64,000 bases of DNA, from positions 3,069,001 through 3,133,000 of the forward strand of contig NZ_JIAL01000001.1 of assembly GCF_000688455.1 (NCBI RefSeq), in the 5' to 3' direction. Source of the stretch: Pseudacidobacterium ailaaui (GTDB taxonomy: Bacteria; Acidobacteriota; Terriglobia; Terriglobales; Acidobacteriaceae). How positions within the stretch are numbered: the stretch's first letter is position 1; the number at the start of each line of letters is the position of its first letter. Position numbers and translations under genes: made by a program. Shown piece by piece: positions 25,915 to 41,168 of this stretch. The notes beneath the pieces were generated by a model. The model was not told the DNA's origin, searched no databases, and saw only the letters and a list, made by a program, of their open reading frames with translations.

Positions 25915-26610
25915 GTGTCCCGGCAAGACGGCCCGAAATTCACTGTTCGACAGCGTATGGCGCTCGCCATTGTGCCGCGGTTGACGGCGGCCCTTCTGGC
26001 AGCCATTGGAGCAACGCTGCGGTTTCGGGTAATCGCTGAACCGGGGGCCACGCCCGCGACGCCTCCGGCAAGAGGGATCTTCTGCTTTTGGCACCGTTGT
26101 ACGTTACCCTGTGCCTGGTATTTCCGCAAATTCCGCTGCTCCATCCTCATCAGCCGTAGCTTTGACGGCGAGCTGATCGCCCGGACGCTGGCGCTTCTGG
26201 GCTTTGGTAGTGTGCGCGGATCGAGTTCGCGCGGCGGTGCAGCAGGTCTTCTGGCATTACAGCAGGTCATCGAACAAGGGGAGCCCGTGGTCTTTACTGC
26301 TGACGGCCCGCGCGGCCCGATCTATCAGACAAAAATGGGGCCGGTAAAACTTGCCCAGATGACCCAGCGGGAAATTGGCAGCTTCTATCTTTTGCCGGAG
26401 CGGGCGTGGGTGGTGCGCTCCTGGGACCAGTTTTTGGTTCCAAAACCATTCTCGCGGGTGGCGGTCAGTTGGTCACGCCCAGTTGCACCTCCCTCGCCGG
26501 ATGCAGACGCCGCCGCATTGGAAGACAAGCGCAGAGAACTGAATGATGCACTGGAGCGCGCAAGAACCAACGCAGAGCGATATTTCGCTTCATCCGGCCA
26601 GACGCACTAG
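25915..26610 (+). CDS. DUF374 lysophospholipid acyltransferase-like protein
   Basis: This 231-residue protein starts at GTG 25915. It has a hydrophobic N-terminus (VPRLTAALLAAIGATLRF) and the acyltransferase-like pattern of DUF374: FCFWHRCTLPCAWYF, ISRSFDGELIARTLALLGF, SSSRGGAAGLLALQQ and FTADGPRGPIYQTKMGPVKLAQ. These match the H-box and the glycine-rich blocks of lysophospholipid acyltransferases, and members have been proposed to modify lipid A or phospholipids. A TTAGAAT -10-like element lies 8 bp before the start, so the transcript may be nearly leaderless. The 3' end overlaps the convergent GNAT gene by 21 bp. Confidence 0.85.
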   Translation: MSRQDGPKFTVRQRMALAIVPRLTAALLAAIGATLRFRVIAEPGATPATPPARGIFCFWHRCTLPCAWYFRKFRCSILISRSFDGELIARTLALLGFGSVRGSSSRGGAAGLLALQQVIEQGEPVVFTADGPRGPIYQTKMGPVKLAQMTQREIGSFYLLPERAWVVRSWDQFLVPKPFSRVAVSWSRPVAPPSPDADAAALEDKRRELNDALERARTNAERYFASSGQTH

Positions 26611-27111
26611 CTGCTCGGCTTCCACCCGGGGGCCAAGAATTGAGACCTTGGGCAACTGGCCGCGGGCCATGGCCACTTCATCGCAGCGGTATAGGCGCGG
26701 GCAGTTCTGGCAGTCCTTGAAAATTTTGTCTGGAAGCGCGGCGCGGTCTTCGACAACGCGGAAGCCATATTTGAAGAAGAAATCCGGGATGCGTGTAAAG
26801 AGGCAGACGCAACCGACGCCGTGCTCCTCCGCTTCATCGAGCAAAGCGCTCAACAGGTTTGCACCCGCGCCCTGGCCCTTGGCCTCAGGACGGACGACGA
26901 TCGAGCGCACCTCGGCCAAGTGCGGGCCATAAAGGTGGAGCGCGCCGCAGCCAAGAAAGACACCAGAATCACTTTCAGCCACGGTAAAGTCGCGTATGTT
27001 TTCACAGATCTCAGGAAAGGCGCGACGCAACAGCGTGCCGTCGCCGGAAAGGCTGTTCACAAGCTCGTAGATGTTGGTTGCGTCCTGGAGGCGCGCCTTA
27101 CGCACCTGCAT
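26590..27111 (-). CDS. GNAT-type N-acetylglutamate synthase (ArgA-like)
   Basis: The 173-residue single GNAT domain has the acetyl-CoA loop RPEAKGQGAGANLLSAL (motif A, Q/RxxGxG/A), LYGPHLAEVRSIVV before it and FFFKYGFRVVE after. A cysteine cluster FKDCQNCPRLYRCDE near residue 135 recalls the short-form acetylglutamate synthases found outside the enterobacteria. It is the last gene of the arginine operon, starts inside the end of argH (14-bp overlap) and has AGGAGG at good spacing. Context plus the cysteine cluster argue for the first step of arginine synthesis, though substrate specificity cannot be proven from sequence. Confidence 0.78.
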   Translation of the reverse strand: MQVRKARLQDATNIYELVNSLSGDGTLLRRAFPEICENIRDFTVAESDSGVFLGCGALHLYGPHLAEVRSIVVRPEAKGQGAGANLLSALLDEAEEHGVGCVCLFTRIPDFFFKYGFRVVEDRAALPDKIFKDCQNCPRLYRCDEVAMARGQLPKVSILGPRVEAEQLVRLAG

Positions 27112-28530
27112 GGGATGCCTCCTGCGCTCCGAGATCGACCTTGCCGTAGATATCGATGAGGTTCTGTACTCGGCCCTCGGCGTCTTTCAGCGCTTCCTGC
27201 ACGCGGTGACGTGCCGTTCCTCCAAGCACATCATGGCAGTCGAGTGTCGCTTCGAGTGTAATGGCAGCAAAGAAGTCCTGCTCGAACTCAGGGCCAAATT
27301 GCTTGAGTTCATTGAGGGTCAGTTGGTCCAACTCACAGCCTTTGTCCAGACAATAACGAACAGCATTGCCGATTTTTTCATGGGCCTTGCGGAAGGGAAC
27401 TCCCTTATGAACAAGATAGGTCGCCGCAGCCATTGCATTCATAAATCCGGTTTGGCAAGCTGCGCGCATCCGGTCGGTGCGGAAGTTTAGCGCCGCCGTA
27501 AATTTCGCCAACAGATTGAGGGTAAGATGCATTGCGGTGGTTGCGGTAAAGACAGGCTCCTGGGTCTCCTGTAGGTCCTTGTTGTAAGCCAACGGCAGGC
27601 CTTTTAGTTGTAGAACGACTGCCTGGGCTGCTCCATTCACCCGGCCCACTTTGGCGCGGACCAGCTCCGTCAGGTCAGGATTTTTCTTCTGCGGCATCGC
27701 GCTTGATCCGGTAGAAAATGCCTCGGGCAAATCGACAAAACCAAACTCAGCAGTGGAGAACAGCGTGATCTCTTCCGCAAATCGGCTGGCATGCAATGCA
27801 ACCAGCGTCAGCGCGTTCAGATATTCGAGGACAAAGTCGCGGTCGCTGGTTGCGTCCATGCTGTTGGCCGTTGGGGCGGTGAAACGAAGCTCTCTGGCAG
27901 CAACATTGCGGTCCAGCGCCAGCGTCGCTCCAGCAATGGGGCCCGAACCAAGCGGGCAGAAATTCAGGCGCTTCGCGCAGTCTTCGAGGCGTGAAATGTC
28001 GCGCAGCAACATCTCGACATACGCCAGCAGCCAATGTGCAACAAGCACAGGCTCGGCGCGCTGCAGGTGCGTGTATGAAGGCATCACGGCACTGCCCATC
28101 GTTTTCGCTTTTTCAATCAGCTGTTGCGCCCATGCTGCAATGTGCATGATGGCCACGCGAATACGGAAACGAATGTATAAACGCAGGTCTGTTGCGATCT
28201 GTTCATTACGGCTGCGGCCCGTGTGCAGTTTCAGGCCGAGATCGCCGAGGGCGTCGACGAGTTTCATCTCGACGAAGTGATGGATGTCTTCGGCATCGGC
28301 CTCGCTGATACCTGATGCTGCAATCTGGTCCAGAGCAACGGAAATCCGCGACCTCTCATCCTGTGTCAAGACCCCGGCCGCTTCAAGAGCGAGCGCATGA
28401 GCTTTACTGGCAGCTACTTCGTCATCGAGCAGTTGCCGGTCAAAGCGAAAGGAACGCTGCCAGTGGTCGAACGCAGGATCCAGCGGTTCGCGGAAGCGAC
28501 CAGACCACATCTTGCCCTGCTGTTCACTCA

Positions 28531-28531
<1 letters not shown>
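27098..28531 (-). CDS. argH: argininosuccinate lyase
   Basis: ArgH splits argininosuccinate into arginine and fumarate. The 477-residue enzyme has MWSGRFREPLDPAFDHWQRSF, HTGRSRNEQIATDLRLY, the YTHLQRAEPVLVAHW helix, and the family signature GSSAMPQKKNPDLTELVR with the catalytic serine. I use the ATG at 28531, whose first base is the last base of the argG stop; a TTG immediately before it is a less likely start. Confidence 0.96.
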
Positions 28532-30941
<2,410 letters not shown>

Positions 30942-30949
<8 letters not shown>

Positions 30950-32201
30950 TTTCAGTTCCTCCTTGGGATTGAGCGCGCTCGCCGGCGTAGGCAGGGCTGT
31001 GCTCGGTAAAGATTTGGTCCAGGGCAGCCGCGGCTTCATCCACGTGTGCCCGTTGAATGATATAGGGCGGCAGGAAGCGCAGCACTGTCTCGCTCGTGCG
31101 GTTGATGAGGATGTGCCGTTTCATCATCTCCGCCAGAACAGTTTTCGCCAGTTCAACGGATTCCACTTCAATGGCCAGCATCAGGCCAAGCCCTCGCACT
31201 TCCGTAATGGCGCTGTGCTTCTGCATAAGCGTTTTGAGCTTTTGCTGGAAATAACCGCCAACGCTGTGGATGTGGTCGAGAAGGTGCTCCTTCTCCATGG
31301 TGTCAATCACAGCAATCGCTGTAGTGCAGGCAAGCGGACCGCCTCCAAATGTTGTGCCGTGCATTCCCGGATGGATTGCATGCGCAGCCTCTTCCTTGCA
31401 AAGCATGGCGCCCAGCGGCAGCCCTCCGGCAAGCGGTTTTGCGAGGGTGGTCACATCGGGCTGCACTCCGTAATGTTGATAGGCGAACCACTTTCCTGTG
31501 CGCCCGAGTCCGGCCTGGATTTCATCTATGATCAGCAGCGCGCCTGTCGATTGCGTCAGTTCGCGTGCCGTCTGCATAAATTCCTGCGAAACAGGCCGGA
31601 CACCGCCCTCGCCCTGGACTGCTTCCAGCAGCACTGCACAGACATCGGTCGAAAACTTTGCCTTGAGGTCAGCAACATCATTGAAGCGGACAAACTCCAC
31701 TCCAGGCATCACCGGAGCAAATGGCTCCCGGTACTTTTCCTTGTGTGTCGCAGCCACCGAACCCATCGTGCGCCCATGGAAGCTGTGCTCAAGGGCCAGA
31801 ATCTTTGTGCCCATCGGTTTGCCTTCACCGCGCTTTAAGCCAGCGTGAGCGCGGGCCAGTTTCAGGGCCGCCTCAATAGCTTCCGTTCCGCTGTTGCAGA
31901 AGAAGGCACGGTCCATTCCGCTCTTCTCCGTCAGACGCAGGGCCAGCTCGGCCTGGCCTTCATGAAAGTATAGGTTGGAGATGTGAATCAGCTTTTTGCT
32001 TTGCTCAGCAATGGCACCTACGATGGCCGGATGGCCATAGCCCAGCGCATTCACGCCGATACCGCTCAGCAAATCCAGATAGCGTTCGCCATTCTCGTCA
32101 ATCAGATGAACGCCTTCTCCCCGCACAAAGAGCAGAGGATTGCGCTCATAGGTGGAAAGCAGCAGCTTTGTCTCTGCCGCGCGAATTGCATCGAGTTTCA
32201 T
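30942..32201 (-). CDS. argD: acetylornithine aminotransferase
   Basis: ArgD transfers the amino group to N-acetylglutamate semialdehyde using PLP. The 419-residue class III aminotransferase has [55 protein letters not shown], the [24 protein letters not shown] block, the PLP lysine in [15 protein letters not shown], and [12 protein letters not shown] use the ATG at 32201, which has GGAG upstream. A TTG five codons earlier is in frame. It lies 64 bp after argB and overlaps argF by 8 bp. Confidence 0.95.
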
Positions 32202-32265
32202 TGAAGAAGTCTCCAAAGTTGCCTGCGAAGAATGCTGTCTTTTAAGAGCACAGCGGCGAAGGATT

Positions 32266-33048
32266 CTAAGCCACCATCACTTCCGTCCCATGGTTGACCC
32301 GGGCGCTGCACAGGTCAGGTAGGACCGATGCCACTTCTGCAGGCAGAATACGCACGCGCTTGACGCCCTGCAGCAGGGCCTCGCGGCAGGCGCTCAGTTT
32401 TGGCAGCATTCCTCCGCTGATCACGGCGTCTTTGGCGAGCTTCGCGATCTGGTCAATGGAGAGCCAGCGCATCACCTCACCATTCGCGTCCTTCACCCCA
32501 GGAACGTCCGTGAGAAAAACCAGTGCATCGGCTTTGCAGGCGGCTGCGCAGGCAGACGCCATCTCATCGGCATTGATGTTGTAGTATTCGCCATCAAAAC
32601 CGAGTGCAAGGCTGGAGATCACTGGTACTGCGCCCATCTTCCAGATGGCTTCCAGCCAGCGCGGATCAGACGCAACAATTTCACCCACAAAGCCTAGATC
32701 GGGCGCCGTGCGCTTTTTGCGTGCACGAAAGACCAGGCCATCACCACCACAGAGTCCTACGGCAGCCTGCCCATGCTTGCCCAGAGCGGCCACCAATGAT
32801 TTGTTGACGCGCCCGCTTAACACCATCAGCGCAGTGTCCCGTGTCTCAGCATCCGTCACACGCAGGCCGGAAATAAATTCACTCTGTTTGCCAAGCTGCT
32901 TTAAAGTTTTGGTCAACTGCACACCGCCGCCATGCACCAGGGCCACCTGGTTGCCGTCCTTCACCAGTTCCGCAATCGCCTTGGCGCAACTCTCGCGCAG
33001 TTCGGGATTTTCCAGTGCAGCGCCGCCAAGTTTTACGACGAATTTCAT
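32266..33048 (-). CDS. argB: acetylglutamate kinase
   Basis: ArgB phosphorylates N-acetylglutamate. The 260-residue amino-acid kinase has the N-terminal VVKLGGAAL lysine strand, LVHGGGVQLTKTLKQLG, SGRVNKSLVAALG, AVGLCGGDGL and the C-terminal NINADEMASACAAACKADALVFLTDVPGV. It resembles the shorter E. coli-like enzymes, without the N-terminal helix associated with arginine-inhibited hexameric forms, so feedback control may rest on the synthase or on ArgR. The ATG overlaps the argC stop (ATGA). Confidence 0.94.
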   Translation of the reverse strand: MKFVVKLGGAALENPELRESCAKAIAELVKDGNQVALVHGGGVQLTKTLKQLGKQSEFISGLRVTDAETRDTALMVLSGRVNKSLVAALGKHGQAAVGLCGGDGLVFRARKKRTAPDLGFVGEIVASDPRWLEAIWKMGAVPVISSLALGFDGEYYNINADEMASACAAACKADALVFLTDVPGVKDANGEVMRWLSIDQIAKLAKDAVISGGMLPKLSACREALLQGVKRVRILPAEVASVLPDLCSARVNHGTEVMVA

Positions 33049-34097
33049 ATCAACCCCTCCGCTTCATTCCATCCATACATGACATTGAGGTTTTGCACCG
33101 CTTGTCCAGCAGCGCCCTTGAGCAGGTTGTCCAAACACGACACAATCACGCATCGTCGTCCATCGGCGGCAAGCTGAAAACCGATATCGCAGAAATTCGT
33201 CCGCACCGAATACTGGATCTGAGGCAGATGTCCGGCAGGGAAGACCCGCACCAGAGGGCTATTTTTATAAAACTCGCGGAAGCAGGCTTCCACTTCCTCT
33301 GAAGTCCTTTTTTCTTGAAACCAGAAATAGATCGTTGAAAGAATTCCACGCGGAATCGGCAGCAGATGCGGCGTGAAAGTAATCTGTTCCGACTTCAGAT
33401 CCAGCTGCTCCAGCAACTCGCCTGTGTGACGGTGGCCGAAAACACCATATGCTGAAAGATTGTCCGCGGCATACATGAAGTGTGTTTTCGCCGTCGGGGC
33501 CTTGCCTGCACCGGAGACACCGGATTTTGAATCACTCACGATGCCACGCTCAGCGTCCACCCAGCCCCTTGCCACCAGCGGTTTCAAAGCCAAAATAATG
33601 GACGTGGCGTAGCATCCGGGATTGGCAACCAATTCCGCATCCTTAATTTCATCGCGATGCAGCTCTGGCATTCCGTAGACAGCTTTGGTCTGCGTCTTTA
33701 CTGCTACATCCGAGCCTTCATCGGGAAACTGATAAACAGCGCGGTTTTCCGCATGGACCAGCCGCCACGCTCCGCTCAAATCCACCACACGAATGCCGTG
33801 TTCCAGGGCCGAGGGCGCCCATTCACGCGACTGTTCATGCGGAGTAGCAAGGAAGAGCACATCCACGCCGCGGTCCTTTATTAGGTCCCAGGAAAATGGT
33901 TCAACCATTATCGCGTGGGAACCATTGTTGTCCATGAGATGCGGATGCAGTTGCGTCAAGGGCTGTGCTGCTTCTGTGCGCCCCAGAAATAAAGGCGCTG
34001 CGCCCTTAAGCTGTGGATGGCGCAGCAGAAGCCGGGCCAGCTCCATTCCGGCGTAGCCTGAAACTCCCATCACCGCGGTTTGAATCTTCTTTGTCAT
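33045..34097 (-). CDS. argC: N-acetyl-gamma-glutamyl-phosphate reductase
   Basis: ArgC reduces acetylglutamyl phosphate to the semialdehyde with NADPH. The 350-residue protein starts with the Rossmann loop TAVMGVSGYAGMELARLLLRHP and has LFLATPHEQS, VVDLSGAWRL, the catalytic cysteine in NPGCYATS, and SDSKSGVSGAGKAPT. The ATG at 34097, two bases after the argR stop, gives the family N-terminus; a longer frame to 34160 would run into argR. It is the second gene of the arginine operon. Confidence 0.95.
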   Translation of the reverse strand: MTKKIQTAVMGVSGYAGMELARLLLRHPQLKGAAPLFLGRTEAAQPLTQLHPHLMDNNGSHAIMVEPFSWDLIKDRGVDVLFLATPHEQSREWAPSALEHGIRVVDLSGAWRLVHAENRAVYQFPDEGSDVAVKTQTKAVYGMPELHRDEIKDAELVANPGCYATSIILALKPLVARGWVDAERGIVSDSKSGVSGAGKAPTAKTHFMYAADNLSAYGVFGHRHTGELLEQLDLKSEQITFTPHLLPIPRGILSTIYFWFQEKRTSEEVEACFREFYKNSPLVRVFPAGHLPQIQYSVRTNFCDIGFQLAADGRRCVIVSCLDNLLKGAAGQAVQNLNVMYGWNEAEGLI

Positions 34098-34099
34098 CG

Positions 34100-34567
34100 T
34101 CAGCCAATCATTTCTTCCAGGCGTGCCTTTAAATACGACGCACTCTTCTGGTCCGGACAAATAATCAGGACCGTGTCATCCCCTGCCAGGGTCCCGACCA
34201 CTTCTTTCCAATCTTCGTGATCAATCGCCAGCGCCACAGGCTGCGCACTTCCACTGGCAGTAATCACAACCAGTTGGTTTTGCGCCTGTTTCACCTTCAG
34301 GCCAAAGCTTCTCAGAACTTCATGAACAGAAGGCAAACCCGTCTCTTCTTCGGCGCGGAGGTGCCCATTTCCATTGCCATTTCCATTGGGAAGGGCATAG
34401 CCGTTGGGCCCTTTATAGAGATGTAATTCGTGGATGTCCCGCGAGACTGTGGCCTGGGTCACATCAAAGCCGCGCCGCACAAGTTTCCGCCGCAGCTCCT
34501 CCTGGTTGGAGATGACCGTTGTCGCCACCAGTTCCCGAATTGCGTTATGTCTCTCTACTTTGCTCAA
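34100..34567 (-). CDS. argR: arginine repressor ArgR
   Basis: ArgR is the hexameric arginine-sensing regulator that binds ARG boxes. The 155-residue protein has the winged-helix part MSKVERHNAIRELVATTVISN with FDVTQATVSRDIHELHL as recognition helix. A Gly/Asn-rich linker (NGNGNGNGH) follows, then the C-terminal core that binds arginine, with GTLAGDDTVLIICPD. It begins at TTG 34567 without a visible ribosome binding site, and the start lies two bases after the stop of a 13-codon upstream ORF, so re-initiation is plausible. It leads the arg operon, next to two ARG boxes, implying autoregulation. Confidence 0.95.
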   Translation of the reverse strand: MSKVERHNAIRELVATTVISNQEELRRKLVRRGFDVTQATVSRDIHELHLYKGPNGYALPNGNGNGNGHLRAEEETGLPSVHEVLRSFGLKVKQAQNQLVVITASGSAQPVALAIDHEDWKEVVGTLAGDDTVLIICPDQKSASYLKARLEEMIG

Positions 34568-34569
34568 AA

Positions 34570-34611
34570 TCAGAAAAAACGCGGCAGCAGAGCCGCGTCC
34601 TCACGATGCAT
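34570..34611 (-). CDS. 13-codon leader ORF upstream of argR
   Basis: The reading frame MHREDAALLPRFF runs from an ATG at 34611 to a TGA at 34570 and ends two bases before the argR TTG. Arginine codons (CGT) occupy positions 3 and 11. The expected transcription start is only about 10 bases upstream, so the message would be nearly leaderless. The second half of the ORF forms the stem of a terminator. There is no homologue I can name and translation is inferred from layout only. Confidence 0.4.
   Translation of the reverse strand: MHREDAALLPRFF
34574..34598 (-). terminator. intrinsic terminator inside the argR leader (possible attenuator)
   Basis: On the minus strand ACGCGGC (34598-34592) pairs with GCCGCGT (34585-34579) around a TCTGCT loop, followed directly by six T (34579-34574). 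This is a complete Rho-independent terminator placed between the promoter and the argR start codon, and it overlaps the leader ORF. Confidence 0.75.
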
Positions 34612-34620
34612 AAAAATACA
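34607..34620 (-). promoter_or_regulatory. ARG box 1 (ArgR operator)
   Basis: TGCATAAAAATACA fits the 5-4-5 ARG-box pattern TGAAT-N4-ATTCA at 8 of 10 conserved bases. It covers the predicted transcription start and the ATG of the leader ORF. Its centre is 21 bp from that of box 2, the spacing known for paired ARG boxes. Confidence 0.75.
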
Positions 34621-34625
34621 ATATC

Positions 34626-34656
34626 ATTGTATAAATATACAAATCCCACTTGTCAA
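34626..34656 (-). promoter_or_regulatory. sigma-70 promoter of the arg operon
   Basis: A perfect -35 TTGACA lies at 34656-34651. The -10 is TATACA at 34633-34628 (17-bp spacer) or TACAAT at 34631-34626 (19-bp spacer). Transcription should begin near 34620. Both ARG boxes overlap it, so ArgR would block RNA polymerase directly. Confidence 0.75.
34628..34641 (-). promoter_or_regulatory. ARG box 2 (ArgR operator)
   Basis: TGTATAAATATACA is a palindrome with the same 5-4-5 geometry, and the symmetry extends one base on each side (34627-34642). It covers the -10 region of the argR promoter. Confidence 0.78.
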
Positions 34657-34708
34657 TAGATTTTGTTTATTTTCCGGAAAAAGGGCCGGGAATGCGGCCA
34701 AGTGGAGC

Positions 34709-34739
34709 TGAGGATGACGGAAGGACGGCGTCATCCTCA
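34709..34739 (-). terminator. strong hairpin between galE and argR
   Basis: TGAGGATGACG (34709-34719) pairs perfectly with CGTCATCCTCA (34729-34739), an 11-bp stem with a 9-base loop, 19 bp after the galE stop. No T-run follows on either strand, so it may be a galE 3'-end structure rather than a proven intrinsic terminator. Confidence 0.5.
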
Positions 34740-34758
34740 AACGGGCAAGGCAGCCGGG

Positions 34759-35742
34759 TCAGGATGTAGCCGTCAACTGATAGCGCTGTTGGTGCCACTT
34801 CCAGGCGCTGGCGAGAATGCTGTCCAGGGATGCGAACTCTGGTTTCCAGCCAAGTTCACGACCAATTTTTTCTGAACTCGCAATCAGAATGGCTGGGTCG
34901 CCGGGGCGCCGCTGTGCCTCTTCAACGGGAATGGGATGGCCGGTCACACGGCGAGCAGCCTCAATGACTTCGCGGATGGAGAAGCCGTGTCCATTGCCGA
35001 GGTTATAGATGAGGCGATCGCGTTCAGCAAGAGCGTTGAAGGCAAGCAGGTGGGCTCTGGCCAGGTCCCACACATGGATATAGTCTCGAATGCAGGTGCC
35101 GTCCGGCGTGGGATAATCGGTTCCGAATACCTTGATGTTGGGACGACGCCCCAGGGCCACGTCCAGTACCAGGGGAATCAGATGCGATTCTGGTTCATGG
35201 GCTTCGCCCCGTCCCTCGATTGCCCCCGCAACATTGAAATAGCGCAGGCTCGCGTAGCGAAAGCCGTGGATCCGATTCAGCCAGGTCAGCATCTGTTCGA
35301 CCAGGAGCTTCGATTCACCGTAAGCATTGGTAGGACAAAGTGGCGCATCTTCCTCAATTGGCGTAGTTTTCGGCTCGCCATAGACCGCTGCGGTGGAGGA
35401 AAAAACGAACTTCTTTACCTTATGCGCCAGCATGACCTCCAGCAACGTGAGGGTCGAAGCGGTGTTATTACGAAAATATACCTCGGGAGACTTCATGCTC
35501 TCTCCGGCTTCAATCAGGGCAGCGAAGTGCATCACTCCATCGAAGGCGTAACTTTGAAAAGCGGCATCCAGCGAGGCCCGATCAGCCAGATCACCCTCAA
35601 GAAAGGTAGCTTTGGCAGGAATGAGGGCCCGATGGGCATGGCACAAATTGTCATAGATGACAGCTTCATGCCCGTTCTGCATTAGAAGCTCGGCCACTGT
35701 CCCACCAATATATCCGGCGCCGCCGGTGACGAGAATTCTCAA
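34759..35742 (-). CDS. galE: UDP-glucose 4-epimerase, TTG start
   Basis: GalE interconverts UDP-glucose and UDP-galactose, feeding exopolysaccharide and LPS sugars. It shows the NAD loop LVTGGAGYIGGTVAELL, HFAALIEAGESMKSPEVYF, the catalytic SSTAAVYGEP and YGESK, and YFNVAGA. The start is TTG at 35742, since AAAGGAGAT lies just upstream and gives 327 residues, normal for GalE. The frame back to 35823 would add 27 residues of unrelated sequence. Confidence 0.94.
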   Translation of the reverse strand: MRILVTGGAGYIGGTVAELLMQNGHEAVIYDNLCHAHRALIPAKATFLEGDLADRASLDAAFQSYAFDGVMHFAALIEAGESMKSPEVYFRNNTASTLTLLEVMLAHKVKKFVFSSTAAVYGEPKTTPIEEDAPLCPTNAYGESKLLVEQMLTWLNRIHGFRYASLRYFNVAGAIEGRGEAHEPESHLIPLVLDVALGRRPNIKVFGTDYPTPDGTCIRDYIHVWDLARAHLLAFNALAERDRLIYNLGNGHGFSIREVIEAARRVTGHPIPVEEAQRRPGDPAILIASSEKIGRELGWKPEFASLDSILASAWKWHQQRYQLTATS

Positions 35743-36211
35743 AATTCCATCTCCTTTTGGGTTTGTTACGGTTGCAGATGCGGAAGGGAAAACATCAGGA
35801 ACAAAGGGAACCTTTTTATTCACTTCCAGAGTAGCTGAAAGTTTTTATGGAAGCATCTAATCAGGAAAAGATTACACGGAAGAGGTATGAAATTCCGTAA
35901 AGTGACCAAGGTAATAGTTACTAGTAAGTTCTACTTAATTACTTGTTTGCGACGAGAATTGTCCTTAAATTTAGGCGGAAATGAGTGTCTTGCAGAGGAT
36001 GTGAGATAGTGATTGGAGTGGGTGTTTTTACCTAGAGAGTGAAGACCGACCCCTCGTTATTTGGCAATCAACTTGCACATCATTCATTTGAGGGACTGCT
36101 CGTCTGCCTTCCATGCCTTGGGAAGTGAATATTTTGAATGTAGAGGCGAATGGATTCGTCTATCAAATTTTAGAGTTTTAGAGAAAAAGGTCATTTGGAC
36201 AACTGGAAGTT
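35743..36211. other. AT-rich divergent intergenic region
   Basis: About 470 bp separate galE from the TonB-like gene, and the sequence is clearly more AT-rich than its surroundings. It contains a perfect 10-bp palindrome TTACTAGTAA at 35918-35927 and several A/T runs. I see no convincing ORF, tRNA or terminator; promoters for both flanking genes should be here. Confidence 0.5.
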
Positions 36212-37291
36212 ATGGCGAGTAACGGGAACGATCCGCTGAATCGGGCAAATTTGGGTCTTCTGCCCGAAGAAAAGGGCAGATTCGGGTCATTTGGTGTAAG
36301 TACAGTCATCAACCTGGTGGCTGCCGGAATCCTGATTCTTCTAACGATGGCGCAGATTCATCAGGAGCAAAAGCGCCGTCAATATCAGACCACGGAATTG
36401 ATATTTCCGGTAGAGCAGCCGAAGCCGTACGTGCCGCCTGCTCCAAAAATCCACATTATTCCTCCGCCTCCAAAAATTGAGCAACCGAAGATCACGCTCC
36501 CGAAGCCTCAGCCGGAGCCGCCGAAACCCGTGGCGGTAAAAGTTCCGACCCCAGAGATGCCGAAACTGGAGCCTGCGCCGCCCAAGGCCGTGACGCCACC
36601 GCCGCAGCCAAAGGTCGGGCTTTTCAAGAGCGCGGTCCCGACGCGAGTGGCGAACAATAATTCAGCTCCCACCCCGAAGACGGGCGGCTTTGGCGACCCC
36701 AACGGAGTAACTCCTAATCCTCATGCTACCCGTCCAGCCACCATTGCTGCGGTCGGAGCTTTTGCTGCAGCGCCTGGTCCGGCAAATGGAGCCGGAGCGG
36801 CGCGTCAGGGGGCAGTCCATGGGACGGATTTTGGCTCTGGAGTCGCCAATGGGGTACCCGGTGGGAAGGACCGCGGTACAGTTGCCTCGGCGGGATTTAA
36901 GAGTGGAGTTGTGGGAGGTACGGGGGCCCCGGGGAGCCATGGGACTGTGGCCACAGGCGGATTTCAGACTCCTGTGGGTACAGGAAATGGTGAGCAGCAC
37001 CTGGCCAAGATGCAGGAGCCACAGTCGACCCCAATTGTGGTGGTCTCGAAGCCGCTTCCACAGTACACACCAGAGGCGAGACAGCTACGGATTCAAGGGG
37101 ATGTAACGCTGGAAGTTCGCTTTACCGCCTCCGGGCGGGTTGAAGTGCTGAGGGTTGTCAGCGGGCTTGGACATGGTCTGGATCAGCAGGCAATTCTGGC
37201 TGCGGAGAAGATCCGGTTTAAGCCCGCCACCAAAAATGGCATTCCGGTGGACGAAGTGAGCACGATCCGGATCACGTTCCAGCTGGCATAG
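36212..37291 (+). CDS. TonB-like energy transducer protein
   Basis: This 359-residue protein has a single N-terminal membrane anchor (VINLVAAGILILLTMAQIH, about residues 31-50), a long Pro/Lys-rich periplasmic spacer (repeats of PPPKIEQPK, PKPQPEPPKP and similar), and a Gly/Ala/Thr-rich stretch. It ends in a TonB C-terminal domain (LPQYTPEARQLRIQGDVTLEVRF with KIRFKPATKNGIPV). TonB passes proton-motive energy from ExbB/ExbD to outer-membrane receptors. ExbB/D are not nearby, and the Gly-rich insert of about 120 residues between spacer and domain is unusual. Confidence 0.85.
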   Translation: MASNGNDPLNRANLGLLPEEKGRFGSFGVSTVINLVAAGILILLTMAQIHQEQKRRQYQTTELIFPVEQPKPYVPPAPKIHIIPPPPKIEQPKITLPKPQPEPPKPVAVKVPTPEMPKLEPAPPKAVTPPPQPKVGLFKSAVPTRVANNNSAPTPKTGGFGDPNGVTPNPHATRPATIAAVGAFAAAPGPANGAGAARQGAVHGTDFGSGVANGVPGGKDRGTVASAGFKSGVVGGTGAPGSHGTVATGGFQTPVGTGNGEQHLAKMQEPQSTPIVVVSKPLPQYTPEARQLRIQGDVTLEVRFTASGRVEVLRVVSGLGHGLDQQAILAAEKIRFKPATKNGIPVDEVSTIRITFQLA

Positions 37292-37404
37292 TAGAGCACG
37301 GCAACTTCTTGTGAAGGAAGGTCAGGATTCAGTGGTTTTCAGGTGCGGCAAATGCGGTCTGTCCGCCAAGACAAAGAACATAAATATATATCAGGAGCTA
37401 GACA

Positions 37405-39207
37405 ATGCTTTTTCGTAAGGTGTGGATGACTGCTGCTGCAGTCATACTGGCGGCAGGTGCCGCGCATGCAAAGACACAAAAATTTGCGCCTCCGGTTCCG
37501 CTCTCTCCTGAACAATCAGCCCTGGTGCAGAAAGCGATTGCGCAGGAAAAGACCATCGTCAAGGCCATTCAGCAACACACTCCTGTGGTGCAGACTTACA
37601 TCCAGAACATGCGTCCGGACCCGCAGCTTTATTCTGTGCCGGATTCAGACCAGTACATGCTGGGACGTGTGGACTTCAGCAAGGCCTTCTACAACAAAGG
37701 ATACGAGGCGAAGCCTTCACGGCATGGATTCTTCAAAGGATCCATGAATTTCCTTTCTGGACTGACCAAGTCTTTTGACCTCAGCTATTCTCCTACTGGA
37801 TTTATGGACATGATGTTCCTGGATCCGGTCAGCTTTGATCAGCAGCACTATGATTTCTCCTATGTCCGGCGCGAGTTTTTGGGCAGTATTCGCACCATGG
37901 TGTTCGACGTGCACCCAAAGCCTGGAACCGGTGCTGGCCGCTTTTTCGGACGGATCTGGATCGAAGACCAGGACGGCAATATTGTCCGCTTTAACGGGAC
38001 GTACACGAACAGTAAAAATTCCGACATAACCCGGTACTATCACTTTGACAGCTGGCGTATGAACCTGCAGCCGGAAGTCTGGCTGCCTGTGGCCATCTAT
38101 GTGGAGGAATCCGAAGGGGGTACTGGGAAAAAACATGGCGGCTTCCGTGCGCAGACCCACTTCTGGGGCTATTCGCTGAAGCTTCCACAGCGAGAGTCAG
38201 AAGCCGAATCCATTGTGGTGGAAAATGCACAGGACCAGAGCGAAAACTCCCAGGACGTTGGTCCGCTGGGGGCCAAGCGGCAGTGGGTTGCGCAGGCCGA
38301 ACAGAATGTGCTTGACCGTCTCGTGCAAGCTGGACTCCTCGCTCCGCCCAGCGATTTTGACAAGGTGCTGGAGCAGGTCACGAATAACATCATCATCGGC
38401 AATAAGCTGGATCTTCCGGCAGACATTCATTGCCGCGTAATTCTCACCACGCCTCTGGAATCCCTTGCAGTCGGCAACACAATTCTGCTTAGCAAAGGTC
38501 TGATTGACGTGCTGCCTACAGAAGAGGATCTGGCTGCGGTAATCAGCTTTCAGCTTGCGCATATCGTTCTCGGGCACCATATTGACACGCGGTACGCCTT
38601 TAATGACCGCCTTCTCTTTCCAGATGAGGCCACGTTCCAGCGCATCAATATGAGCCATACTCCGGCCGACGATGAGGCTGCCGCGAAGAAGGCCGTCGAG
38701 TTATTTGATAACTCCATCTACCACGACAAATCGGCCAGTGTAAGCCTCTTTTTCCAGCAGGTTGTAGCCAGGGAAAAATATCTTCCGGGTCTGCTCAGCC
38801 CTAGGTTGGGAGACCCTTTGCTTAAAGCGGATGGAACACCTTGGTTGTCTGCCTTCCTGAATCGCGGACCGAAGTTGAATCTTACGGACATGAACCAGCA
38901 GCTTGCCGCGTTGCCACTGGGCAGCCACTTGAAGGCAGATCCCTGGGATGACAAGGTCTACGCGCTGAACATCCGTCAGGAACACATTCTCAATCCGAGC
39001 GACAAAATGCCGCTGGAACTGACTCCGGTTTATTTCCGACTGCAGCGCTATCAACCCCCGGCAGCCGCAGCATCACTTCCTGCGGGACAACAACCAGTGA
39101 ATGGAAGCGCGCCTGCGGACAGTAACACGCCTCCGCAGCAGCCTGACAACAACACTCCGCAGCCACAGCAGACACAACCGCAACCGGGACAAAATCCCCA
39201 GTCATGA
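37405..39207 (+). CDS. secreted M48-like protein lacking the HExxH zinc motif
   Basis: The 600-residue protein has a signal peptide (WMTAAAVILAAGAAHAKT). A domain to about residue 260 is of unknown type, with outer-membrane-lipoprotein-like beta features (VFDVHPKPGTGAGRFFGRIWI). Residues about 300-480 resemble M48 metalloproteases (AVGNTILLSKGLIDVLPTEEDLAAVI). Where M48 proteins have HExxH, this one reads FQLAH at 382-386, so the first His and catalytic Glu are lost and zinc chemistry is not expected. The tail is Pro/Gln-rich. It lies between a TonB-like gene and an outer-membrane-type gene and is preceded by AGGAG. Confidence 0.75.
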   Translation: MLFRKVWMTAAAVILAAGAAHAKTQKFAPPVPLSPEQSALVQKAIAQEKTIVKAIQQHTPVVQTYIQNMRPDPQLYSVPDSDQYMLGRVDFSKAFYNKGYEAKPSRHGFFKGSMNFLSGLTKSFDLSYSPTGFMDMMFLDPVSFDQQHYDFSYVRREFLGSIRTMVFDVHPKPGTGAGRFFGRIWIEDQDGNIVRFNGTYTNSKNSDITRYYHFDSWRMNLQPEVWLPVAIYVEESEGGTGKKHGGFRAQTHFWGYSLKLPQRESEAESIVVENAQDQSENSQDVGPLGAKRQWVAQAEQNVLDRLVQAGLLAPPSDFDKVLEQVTNNIIIGNKLDLPADIHCRVILTTPLESLAVGNTILLSKGLIDVLPTEEDLAAVISFQLAHIVLGHHIDTRYAFNDRLLFPDEATFQRINMSHTPADDEAAAKKAVELFDNSIYHDKSASVSLFFQQVVAREKYLPGLLSPRLGDPLLKADGTPWLSAFLNRGPKLNLTDMNQQLAALPLGSHLKADPWDDKVYALNIRQEHILNPSDKMPLELTPVYFRLQRYQPPAAAASLPAGQQPVNGSAPADSNTPPQQPDNNTPQPQQTQPQPGQNPQS

Positions 39208-39290
39208 AGGGACAGAATTCATGACTGGCTACCTACATCAAGTTCGCTATGTTTTTTGCTCCTTGGCAAACCATCTACAGGAGACTGCTC

Positions 39291-39857
39291 GTGTCTAAAA
39301 AAATATTGGTCTTGGCCATTGTTCTCAACTCCCTTCTTTCTTTTGCGCAGGTGGCCCCGGCGAATCGCGGCGGAGGACTTTCGCTATCAGCAGGTGCGGA
39401 ATATTCCGACTTTAACCCGGATTGGGGGCCTGACCGTTTGCAGGGCATGGCCGCTTTTTTTGATCTGGATCATCTTTTCCTGAACCGACTGGGAGTGGAA
39501 GGTGAGGCGCGCTGGCTGCGCTTCAATCAGCCCCACGGGGAAACAGAGGACAACTACCTGCTTGGCCCGCGCTTTCGGATGGTTCGTTTCGGAAAACTAG
39601 AGGCTTATGGAAAGTTCCTCATGGGCGGAGGGTGGATAACATATCGCGATAAACTTGGCAGCGGCAGCTACTTTGCTTATGCCCCTGGCATCACCGGAGA
39701 GTACCGTCTCTCTCGGCACTGGAAGGTGCGCGGCGACTATGAATACGAATTCTGGCCAGCCGCTCCCGGTGAGGCCTTCACCGCGCCTTTCGGAAAAACG
39801 AGTAGCGGTCTAACTCCGAATGGCTTCAGTGTGGGTGTTTCTTACCGCATCTTCTAA
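39291..39857 (+). CDS. small outer-membrane beta-barrel-like protein
   Basis: I place the start at GTG 39291, which has AGGAG eight bases upstream, giving 188 residues; the frame to 39249 lacks such a site. A signal peptide (ILVLAIVLNSLLSFAQV) precedes alternating beta strands such as LSLSAGAEYSDF, GVEGEARWLRF, LEAYGKFLMGGGW and WKVRGDYEYEFW, and the protein ends in Phe (GFSVGVSYRIF). The OmpA-like eight-strand pattern with a terminal aromatic residue is what BAM substrates show. No specific function is visible. Confidence 0.72.
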   Translation: MSKKILVLAIVLNSLLSFAQVAPANRGGGLSLSAGAEYSDFNPDWGPDRLQGMAAFFDLDHLFLNRLGVEGEARWLRFNQPHGETEDNYLLGPRFRMVRFGKLEAYGKFLMGGGWITYRDKLGSGSYFAYAPGITGEYRLSRHWKVRGDYEYEFWPAAPGEAFTAPFGKTSSGLTPNGFSVGVSYRIF

Positions 39858-39965
39858 AAAGTAAGGAAGCAAGCCGCGGGCGGTTTGATGCTGCGGCTTG
39901 CTCTCCGTTCAGAACGTAGCTGGAGTATCATCTACTTAGCGGCCCCTTGCTGCAAGAGTGAGTCC

Positions 39966-41168
39966 ATGTCCAAAAATTTCAAACGCGTCATTCTAGGAAT
40001 ATCCGTGCTTCTAGTCGCCATTGTCCTGATTGGCGGTTTGGGAATGAATGGTGTACGCGCCGGTACACAGAGTGATGGTGCGTACAGGCAAATGGGTGTT
40101 TATGAAGAGGTGCTGCATAAGATTCAGAGCGACTACGTGGTCGAACCCAACCTGAACAAAGTAACGACTGGGGCGCTCCATGGACTGCTGGAGTCCCTTG
40201 ACTCTGATTCAAGTTACTTGACCCCGGCTGAATACACGACCTTTAAAGCGCATGAGAATGAAGGCTCCGCAGCACAGGTGGGCCTGAATGTTTCAAAGCG
40301 CGGTGGATATGCCACTGTTGTCTCTGTTATGCCGGGAAGCCCTGCGGAACGCGAGCAGATTCAGGACGGGGACATCATCGTGGCCATTGGGGACCAGCCT
40401 ACAAGGGAAATGTCGCTGGCGATGGTTCGTCTTCTGCTGGAAGGCAAACCCGGGACCCAGGTGACTTTCTCACTGGTGCGTCCGGAGCGGGGCAAATATG
40501 ACCCGGAGAAAATTACTCTTACCCGCACGAATGTGACCGTTCCGGCGATGGGACAGCAGGAGTACGAAAACTCAAGCATCCTCTATCTCAAGCCAGTGGT
40601 CCTGAACAAGGAGCGCGTAGACGAAATCGAGTCCCGCCTCAAGGCAATGCAGAAGAACGGCAACAAAAAGGTTTTACTGGATTTACGCGATGTTGCCCTG
40701 GGAGACGAGCAGCAGGCGGTTCGTCTGGCCAATGCTTTTATTCGTAACGGAACGATTGCCATGCTTGAAGGACAAAAAGTAAGCAAACAGACCTTTGCGG
40801 CAGATCCGAATAAGTTCATTACCAATGCTCCTTTGGCTGTTCTGGTCAACCATGGCACATCAGGCCCCGGAGAGTTGGTGGCTGCGGCAATTCTTGATAA
40901 CAAACGCGGTGATGTTGTCGGAGACCGCACGTTTGGTGAAGGTAGCGTACAGAAAACCATTGAATTACCAGATGGCGCTGCTCTGATACTGTCCGTGGCA
41001 AAATATGAATCTCCTTCCGGAAAAAAGATACAGGACGAGGCCGTAACTCCAAACGTTCTGGTTGCTTCTGACTTTGACCAGTATGATGATCCAAACCAGA
41101 AGCCGGTCTCCCATCAGGACGATCAATTGAATAAAGCGCTGGATCTGTTAAAACAAAAGAACGCATAA
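39966..41168 (+). CDS. S41/CtpA-like PDZ protein with lost catalytic dyad
   Basis: The ATG at 39966 gives 400 residues with an N-terminal membrane anchor (ILGISVLLVAIVLIGGLGM), a helical N-domain, a PDZ domain (VVSVMPGSPAEREQIQDGDIIVAIGD, about 105-170) and an S41 peptidase fold to residue 365. In active CtpA/Prc enzymes the Ser and Lys lie 25 residues apart. Here those positions are Gly300 (HGTSGPGEL) and Glu325 (TFGEGSVQ), so both are gone. It is probably a scaffold or regulator. It is followed by a class A PBP, and CtpA homologues often act on peptidoglycan enzymes. Confidence 0.85.
   Translation: MSKNFKRVILGISVLLVAIVLIGGLGMNGVRAGTQSDGAYRQMGVYEEVLHKIQSDYVVEPNLNKVTTGALHGLLESLDSDSSYLTPAEYTTFKAHENEGSAAQVGLNVSKRGGYATVVSVMPGSPAEREQIQDGDIIVAIGDQPTREMSLAMVRLLLEGKPGTQVTFSLVRPERGKYDPEKITLTRTNVTVPAMGQQEYENSSILYLKPVVLNKERVDEIESRLKAMQKNGNKKVLLDLRDVALGDEQQAVRLANAFIRNGTIAMLEGQKVSKQTFAADPNKFITNAPLAVLVNHGTSGPGELVAAAILDNKRGDVVGDRTFGEGSVQKTIELPDGAALILSVAKYESPSGKKIQDEAVTPNVLVASDFDQYDDPNQKPVSHQDDQLNKALDLLKQKNA

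Follow-up and report, generated by a model that had tools for sequence, protein, structure and literature searches.

Organization of the argR locus

The window, i.e. the whole analyzed stretch of 64,000 nucleotides from the genome of Pseudacidobacterium ailaaui, carries on its minus strand a set of arginine biosynthesis genes headed by argR. The genes and the elements of the promoter region are listed below.

27098..34160, minus strand: argC, argB, argD, argF, argG and argH (NCBIfam profiles for argC, argB, argD, ornithine carbamoyltransferase, argG and argH, each over its cut-off)
34100..34567, minus strand: argR, arginine repressor, TTG start at 34567 (Pfam PF01316 and PF02863 over the cut-off)
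34621-34606, minus strand: ARG box 2, TTGTATTTTTATGCAT, containing the ATG 34611-34609 (sequence, relatives)
34642-34627, minus strand: ARG box 1, TTGTATATTTATACAA (sequence, relatives)
34633-34628, minus strand: −10 element TATACA, within ARG box 1 (sequence and spacing in relatives)
34656-34651, minus strand: −35 element TTGACA (sequence)
34699-34684, minus strand: terminator-like hairpin of galE
35823-34759, minus strand: galE, on the same strand as argR

The argR product reached 121.2 bits against the NCBIfam profile TIGR01529, which is below the cut-off of 130.45. The genes argRCBDFGH, with argR in the first position, are a putative operon and would be transcribed as one message. The longest ORF of argF overlaps the end of argD by 98 bases (window positions 30942-31039). 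Since the profile match starts at residue 49-52, the true argF start is probably located further downstream.

The spacer between the TTGACA and TATACA hexamers has a length of 17 nt. From the position of this promoter, the transcription start is predicted at approximately 34621-34622, about 10 nt before the ATG at 34611. This agrees with an earlier note on this DNA, in which a 13-codon ORF was placed about 10 bases behind the predicted start. The TTGACA-17-TATACA promoter was not reported by the promoter scan, because the scan requires a T at the sixth position of the second hexamer.

The paired boxes in front of argR are presumably ARG boxes. Their dual pattern was matched once in the 3.69 Mb genome, in front of argR, and with this one match the ArgR regulon of this genome may consist of the argR operon alone. 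An argR gene and a promoter overlaid by two ARG boxes at a spacing of about 20-21 bp mark the locus as a putative ArgR-regulated operon. From what is known of the protein family, ArgR would be expected to bind here in an arginine-dependent manner and to repress transcription.

A terminator-like hairpin in the argR leader

Between ARG box 2 and argR the following elements were identified:

34574..34579, minus strand: U-tract of six T, the first T also paired in the stem (sequence)
34575..34602, minus strand: terminator-like hairpin, core stem 34598-34592 / 34585-34579, loop TCTGCT (sequence, folding, relatives)
34599..34602, minus strand: GAGG, a possible Shine-Dalgarno sequence that the hairpin might bridge to the TTG (sequence and alignment A2)

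The core stem ACGCGGC/GCCGCGT is lengthened by G-U and A-U pairs to 34602-34575. A hairpin with six T overlapping the short ORF had been described in the earlier note, and together with the U-tract it was found again at 34602-34574. The region 34570-34625 folds with −20.5 kcal/mol (z −3.9), and none of 200 shuffled sequences folded as well. The same was true for 34568-34605 (z −3.75, 0 of 200). For the longer region 34540-34625, which extends into argR, the z-score was only −1.66 and 10 of 200 shuffles were as good. As in an intrinsic terminator, a G+C-rich stem is followed by a U-run, and this arrangement is kept in part of the relatives. By its position it would be an intrinsic terminator located before the first structural gene.

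The frequency of such sites was estimated in 400 kb of the same genome, with at least 5 T required and with genes called by longest ORF, so that the counts are approximate. Among 114 genes with an upstream neighbour that is divergent or lies at a distance of over 400 nt, 3 had a sense-strand terminator-like site within the last 80 nt; when any gap of at least 40 nt was allowed, it was 10 of 164 genes. As judged from folding, from this rarity and from the conservation in relatives described below, the hairpin is more than a chance structure.

A riboswitch or other known RNA was rejected, since no Rfam 15 family (riboswitches, T-box and others) matched positions 26000-40000 at its gathering score. 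The two weak matches in 34480-34780 were far below that score (18.1 vs. 46 bits and 17.6 vs. 58.7 bits).

argR loci in related genomes

In the family Acidobacteriaceae, argR was found in 171 of 200 genomes. The 110 argR loci examined were the better matches among the argR-bearing genomes, the less similar ones being left out. L076 and L094 were excluded for the lack of a dual ARG box (score below 36), resulting in 108 loci, 105 of which had an argC match. The argR start in relatives was defined as the place aligned with residue 1 of the window ArgR, from which the real start codon may differ by a few nucleotides. Measured to this place, 79 leaders have at least 20 nt behind box 2 and 29 are shorter; the 79 include the window's own leader and three from the sister clade described below (L083, L095 and L097). 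One contig (G157, C1) carries two argR genes, at 2311336 and 2486979, with 52% and 60% identity to the window ArgR, of which only the second was examined (L073).

A tree of the 108 loci, obtained with a quick method from 147 columns and with 41 of 105 inner branches unresolved, splits them into a clade of 78 (SH-aLRT 99) and a sister clade of 30. The gap between box 2 and argR is at least 20 nt in 76 members of the clade of 78. In the sister clade it is below 20 nt in 27 of 30 loci, i.e. there is no room for a terminator, and at most 2 nt in 24.

The sister clade comprises L080-L111 without L081 and L094. Box 2 ends at most 2 nt from the aligned argR start or overlaps it in 24 of these 30 loci, so that the operator may be transcribed within the message.

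An extra sample of 39 argR loci (L218-L257 minus the duplicate L256) contained 31 loci from outside the family and 8 from within. A box pair with a score of at least 36 was found in 17 of the 31 and was lacking in 14. In 15 of these 17, no more than 20 nt separate the end of box 2 from the aligned argR start. The terminator criterion was passed by one of the 17 (L246), which has a weak stem and whose T run into a TATAAT. L246 and L252, which belong to another family (f3), have a TATAAT downstream of the ARG boxes and upstream of argR; the operator may therefore sit upstream of or over the −35 region there. Of the 8 further family loci, 7 have a box pair and 4 of these a leader (L241-L244, one genus); a terminator was found in none of the four.

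Conservation of the terminator-like hairpin

With a minimum of 6 stem pairs and of 4 T following the stem, a terminator-like hairpin was detected in 37 of the 79 leaders, compared to 2.3 expected from dinucleotide shuffles, and in none of the 29 short forms with less than 20 nt between box 2 and argR. With L241-L244 included, the count is 37 of 83. A folding-based criterion was passed by 40 of the 79 leaders (5.9 expected) and again by none of the 29 short forms. After L045 had been dropped by eye as false, 39 terminator-bearing leaders remained. Cultured relatives that have the element include Acidipila rosea DSM 103428 (L116) and Silvibacterium bohemicum S15 (L117). Hairpins or U-runs seen by eye and missed by the folding criterion (L011, L018, L027, L028, L046, L067, L069 and L078) were not added; L027 and L028 do pass the criterion of stem and T.

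The frequency of T in the first five positions behind the stem was 0.43-0.61 in all 79 leaders and 0.50-0.73 in the 62 leaders with a hairpin of −7 kcal/mol or below. From the twelfth position onward it was 0.03-0.25. The sequence of the stem varies freely, e.g. CGCGGC/GCCGCG, CGCAGA/TCTGCG, GTGACGC/GCGTCAC and GCGCGAC/GTCGCGC. Covariation was determined in alignment A2 of 18 leaders, where 96.1% of the stem cells were paired, compared to 21.6-48.5% with slid partners. The 8 double-changed cells were reached by 0 of 500 shuffles and the 3 double-changed pairs by 14 of 500; the count of further pair types was reached by 256 of 500. These figures lean towards structure, since the 18 leaders had been chosen for simple hairpins.

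The folding criterion excludes half of the clade (39 of 78), and on the tree the hairpin appears to have been lost in some subclades, which indicates that it is not essential. Based on the leaders compared, the terminator is often, not always, conserved and is found in one clade of the family. L022, L030, L031, L040 and L047 have an interrupted U-run (TTTCGATT or similar) and a hairpin that begins at the edge of the box. Such box-edge hairpins perhaps lie within a few nucleotides of the RNA start, and termination there might be weak.

Position of the terminator-like hairpin relative to promoter and operator

In 38 of the 39 terminator-bearing leaders, the stem ends and the U-run starts at a distance of 39-55 nt, counted from the base that precedes box 2. 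The average distance between box 2 and the stem end was 28.9 nt (sd 5.5, n=39), whereas the distance between the stem end and the argR start was 34.5 nt with a much larger spread (sd 26.5, n=39). The spacing to box 2 is nearly constant and that to argR variable; the element is therefore tied to promoter and operator and is independent of where argR starts.

A TTGACA-like hexamer (5-6 matches) precedes the −10 place in ARG box 1 by 15-19 nt in 31 of the 39 terminator-bearing leaders, compared to 15 of 39 in the other members of the clade. For the GCGCGG subclade an alternative promoter inside the boxes (TTGCAT-17-TATATT, found by eye) is possible; the hexamer counts show no clear preference.

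The hairpin starts at most 25 nt from the inferred 5′-end in 38 of the 39 leaders; in the GCGCGG subclade it begins at the edge of the box. A protective stem at the 5′-terminus is known for the ompA mRNA. A non-terminating stem which shields the argR operon mRNA from decay would suit this position and the retention of the structure through sequence change in half of the clade. Such a stem needs no U-run, and T is strongly enriched directly behind the stem here; protection as the function of the hairpin is therefore considered rather unlikely.

A role in argR translation was weighed for the subclade with TTG starts. No Shine-Dalgarno sequence was found by sequence inspection near the argR TTG, as the earlier note had observed, and the nearest candidate is the GAGG about 30 nt upstream, beyond the hairpin. 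By folding away the distance between GAGG and TTG, the hairpin could serve translation initiation. GAGG or similar purines directly precede the stem in most rows of alignment A2, and the TTG immediately follows the U-run in the window's subclade. In 12 leaders with a TTG start, counting by eye places this codon 8-12 nt downstream of the core stem (the computed distances are 3, 5 and 6 for L003, L010 and L012, whose stems were drawn longer). In the other 27 of the 39 leaders, however, argR starts 21-106 nt behind the stem, and the stem is fixed relative to the promoter and not to argR. Bridging as the function of the hairpin appears quite improbable. It is compatible with termination, and both protection and bridging could be additions to a terminator as well as rivals of it.

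The leader ORF

The stem of the hairpin overlaps a short ORF:

34570..34611, minus strand: 13-codon ORF, proposed as leader peptide, not conserved (sequence)

The ORF encodes M H R E D A A L L P R F F stop. As described in the earlier note, it has CGT codons for Arg at positions 3 and 11, and its TGA ends two bases upstream of the argR TTG at 34567. It had been proposed on this basis that a ribosome on the ORF keeps the hairpin from forming and thereby links arg expression to translation, which could be arginine-dependent. The existence of the ORF and its overlap with the 5′ arm of the stem fit such a mechanism, and in the 33 of 39 terminator-bearing leaders that have the ATG of box 2, a ribosome that only initiates there could mask the beginning of the stem.

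The comparison of leaders suggested in the earlier note gave a divided result: the stem is often kept (37 of 79, 2.3 expected), and the ORF with its Arg codons is not. No conservation of the 13-codon ORF above chance was found in the leaders of the relatives. The ATG in box 2 is absent in 6 of the 39 terminator-bearing leaders (L017, L019, L020, L025, L053 and L077); L017 and L053 have ATA in its place. In the 33 leaders with the ATG, the frame ranges between 2 and 172 codons in length. Its stop comes ahead of the stem in 1 leader, within the hairpin in 5 and downstream of the hairpin but short of argR in 12; in the remaining 15 it lies beyond the argR start. Arg codons amount to 48 of 372 in the ORF frame compared to 60 of 361 and 51 of 352 in the other frames, which is as expected since the stem is CG-rich. 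In L003, the only congener compared, the frame runs into argR in frame and has no stop. The earlier note had regarded a loss of both hairpin and ORF in close relatives as evidence against its proposal; the ORF was lost and the hairpin was not.

The argR frame of L003 (1360-1962) continues upstream across hairpin and ARG box with no stop, which would allow an N-terminal extension of ArgR there.

The ATG itself is part of the half-site TATGCA of ARG box 2, and the operator accounts for its presence. It is more common with the terminator (33 of 39 leaders) than without (23 of 39; Fisher p 0.022, uncorrected for kinship), and on the tree this association comprises only 4 independent pairs. No Shine-Dalgarno sequence was found before the ATG in the approximately 10 nt of A+T-rich leader that follow the inferred RNA start. 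A mutually exclusive antiterminator of comparable strength was likewise not detected in the 39 leaders, where the best structure before the 3′ arm had a median of −4.1 kcal/mol compared to −15.0 kcal/mol for the hairpin. The exception is L075 (−16.0 kcal/mol), whose structure has no contact to the 5′ arm. Since the 5′ arm has no alternative pairing of similar strength until the 3′ arm has been made, a two-state RNA switch is not evident. With ATG, length, frame, stop position and Arg codons not conserved, and with neither a ribosome binding site nor an antiterminator, the proposed coupling to translation of the ORF was not upheld, and leader-peptide attenuation is regarded as very improbable.

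The upstream neighbourhood

The possibility that the hairpin is the terminator of the upstream gene, galE being on the same strand in the window, or a product of chance is negligible: galE has a terminator-like hairpin of its own, the hairpin in question sits behind the arg promoter, the upstream gene is divergent in 34 of 38 relatives (longest ORF, a rough method), and the hairpin counts are far above those of the shuffles.

Behind galE, positions 34684-34738 contain the inverted repeats GAGGATGACG/CGTCATCCTC (34738-34710) and GGCCG/CGGCC, the latter followed by CTTTTT. The two repeats perhaps form a tandem galE terminator. In L003, L014 and L030 the upstream gene is divergent and encodes a class-II glutamine amidotransferase protein; for the partial piece of L014 the best NCBIfam match was the large subunit of glutamate synthase, below the cut-off. 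The region upstream of the arg promoter thus seems to have been rearranged in the lineage of the window, with galE in place of the divergent amidotransferase gene.

Comparison with known systems

Arginine operons autoregulated by ArgR and ARG boxes are known from the E. coli and B. subtilis type. The locus described here is similar to these in its argR gene with paired ARG boxes over the promoter, and differs by the promoter-locked terminator behind the operator. Leader-peptide attenuators of amino acid operons combine a terminator in the leader with a short ORF. The terminator is shared with these systems, as is an overlapping short ORF in this one genome, whereas a conserved ORF, regulatory codons, a ribosome binding site and an antiterminator were not found, so that the leader would probably not belong to this class.

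In Pseudomonas, ArgR belongs to another protein family. The nearest precedent found is the leader terminator of carA (P32 RNA) in Pseudomonas syringae DC3000. The study of that leader places a Rho-independent terminator between the transcription start and the first gene, marks ArgR sites at the promoter, maps a 3′-end downstream of the terminator and reports no leader ORF (PMC4997734). Breaking or removing the stem-loop increased carA expression, arginine raised and uracil lowered it, and pyrimidine control is discussed; for carA of P. aeruginosa, a leader peptide is described (PMC4997734). As far as described there, the P. syringae leader resembles the one analyzed here in belonging to an arginine-pathway operon with ArgR sites and a terminator and without a leader ORF. 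It differs in that the operon is carAB and not an argR operon.

For Acidobacteria, an earlier survey states that almost none of the predicted attenuators has an associated function (Naville and Gautheret, 2010; PMC2965389). The words arginine, argR and argC are absent from the main text of that paper. For the leader analyzed here, the gene, the operator geometry and the conservation are given. A further paper (PMC8297930) had no bearing on leader termination of argR. The open-licence papers searched yielded no description of a leader terminator in an argR-type operon, which does not prove its absence.

Proposed role of the leader terminator

Taken from the sequence and its conservation, the hairpin and U-run are probably a promoter-locked leader attenuator which limits transcription of argRCBDFGH alongside ArgR and does so without a leader peptide. 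In the transcript controlled by ArgR, the U-run would occupy approximately +43 to +49, and an RNA polymerase escaping repression by ArgR would reach the terminator immediately. A fraction of the polymerases would stop at about +48 and yield a short RNA of approximately 48 nt, and the remainder would continue into argRCBDFGH. Partial termination of this kind would lower the expression of argR and of the biosynthetic genes together. We infer ArgR binding, termination in the cell and the existence of a terminated fraction from the DNA. Since no antiterminator is evident, an attenuator that is constant or modulated by a protein or ribosome is the most likely form.

A conditional attenuator which senses arginine or the state of translation without a leader peptide or antiterminator is unlikely but can be formulated. 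A ribosome on the first nucleotides, at the AUG in the transcribed ARG box, or ArgR itself might act on the hairpin, and one operator would then be DNA site, promoter and RNA control element at once. A ribosome merely initiating at the AUG of box 2 could touch the stem, so that the AUG may have a role even if no peptide is made.

Attenuation of the arginine operon, as suggested in the earlier note, is retained here in the form of a terminator-like element beyond the ArgR operators, with which conservation, U-run and covariation are consistent; control by translation of the ORF is not part of it. The earlier finding is narrowed to an often conserved, apparently operator-locked leader terminator without a leader peptide.

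If a promoter-locked leader attenuator is present, a textbook repressor operon would carry a second brake that acts at the RNA level and that many members of the clade have retained, in a phylum where hardly any predicted attenuator had an assigned function according to the 2010 survey. Its near-constant distance to the operator and the lack of an evident sensor would offer a clean test of whether selection keeps bare leader terminators as a means of adjusting how strongly and how noisily autoregulated operons are expressed.
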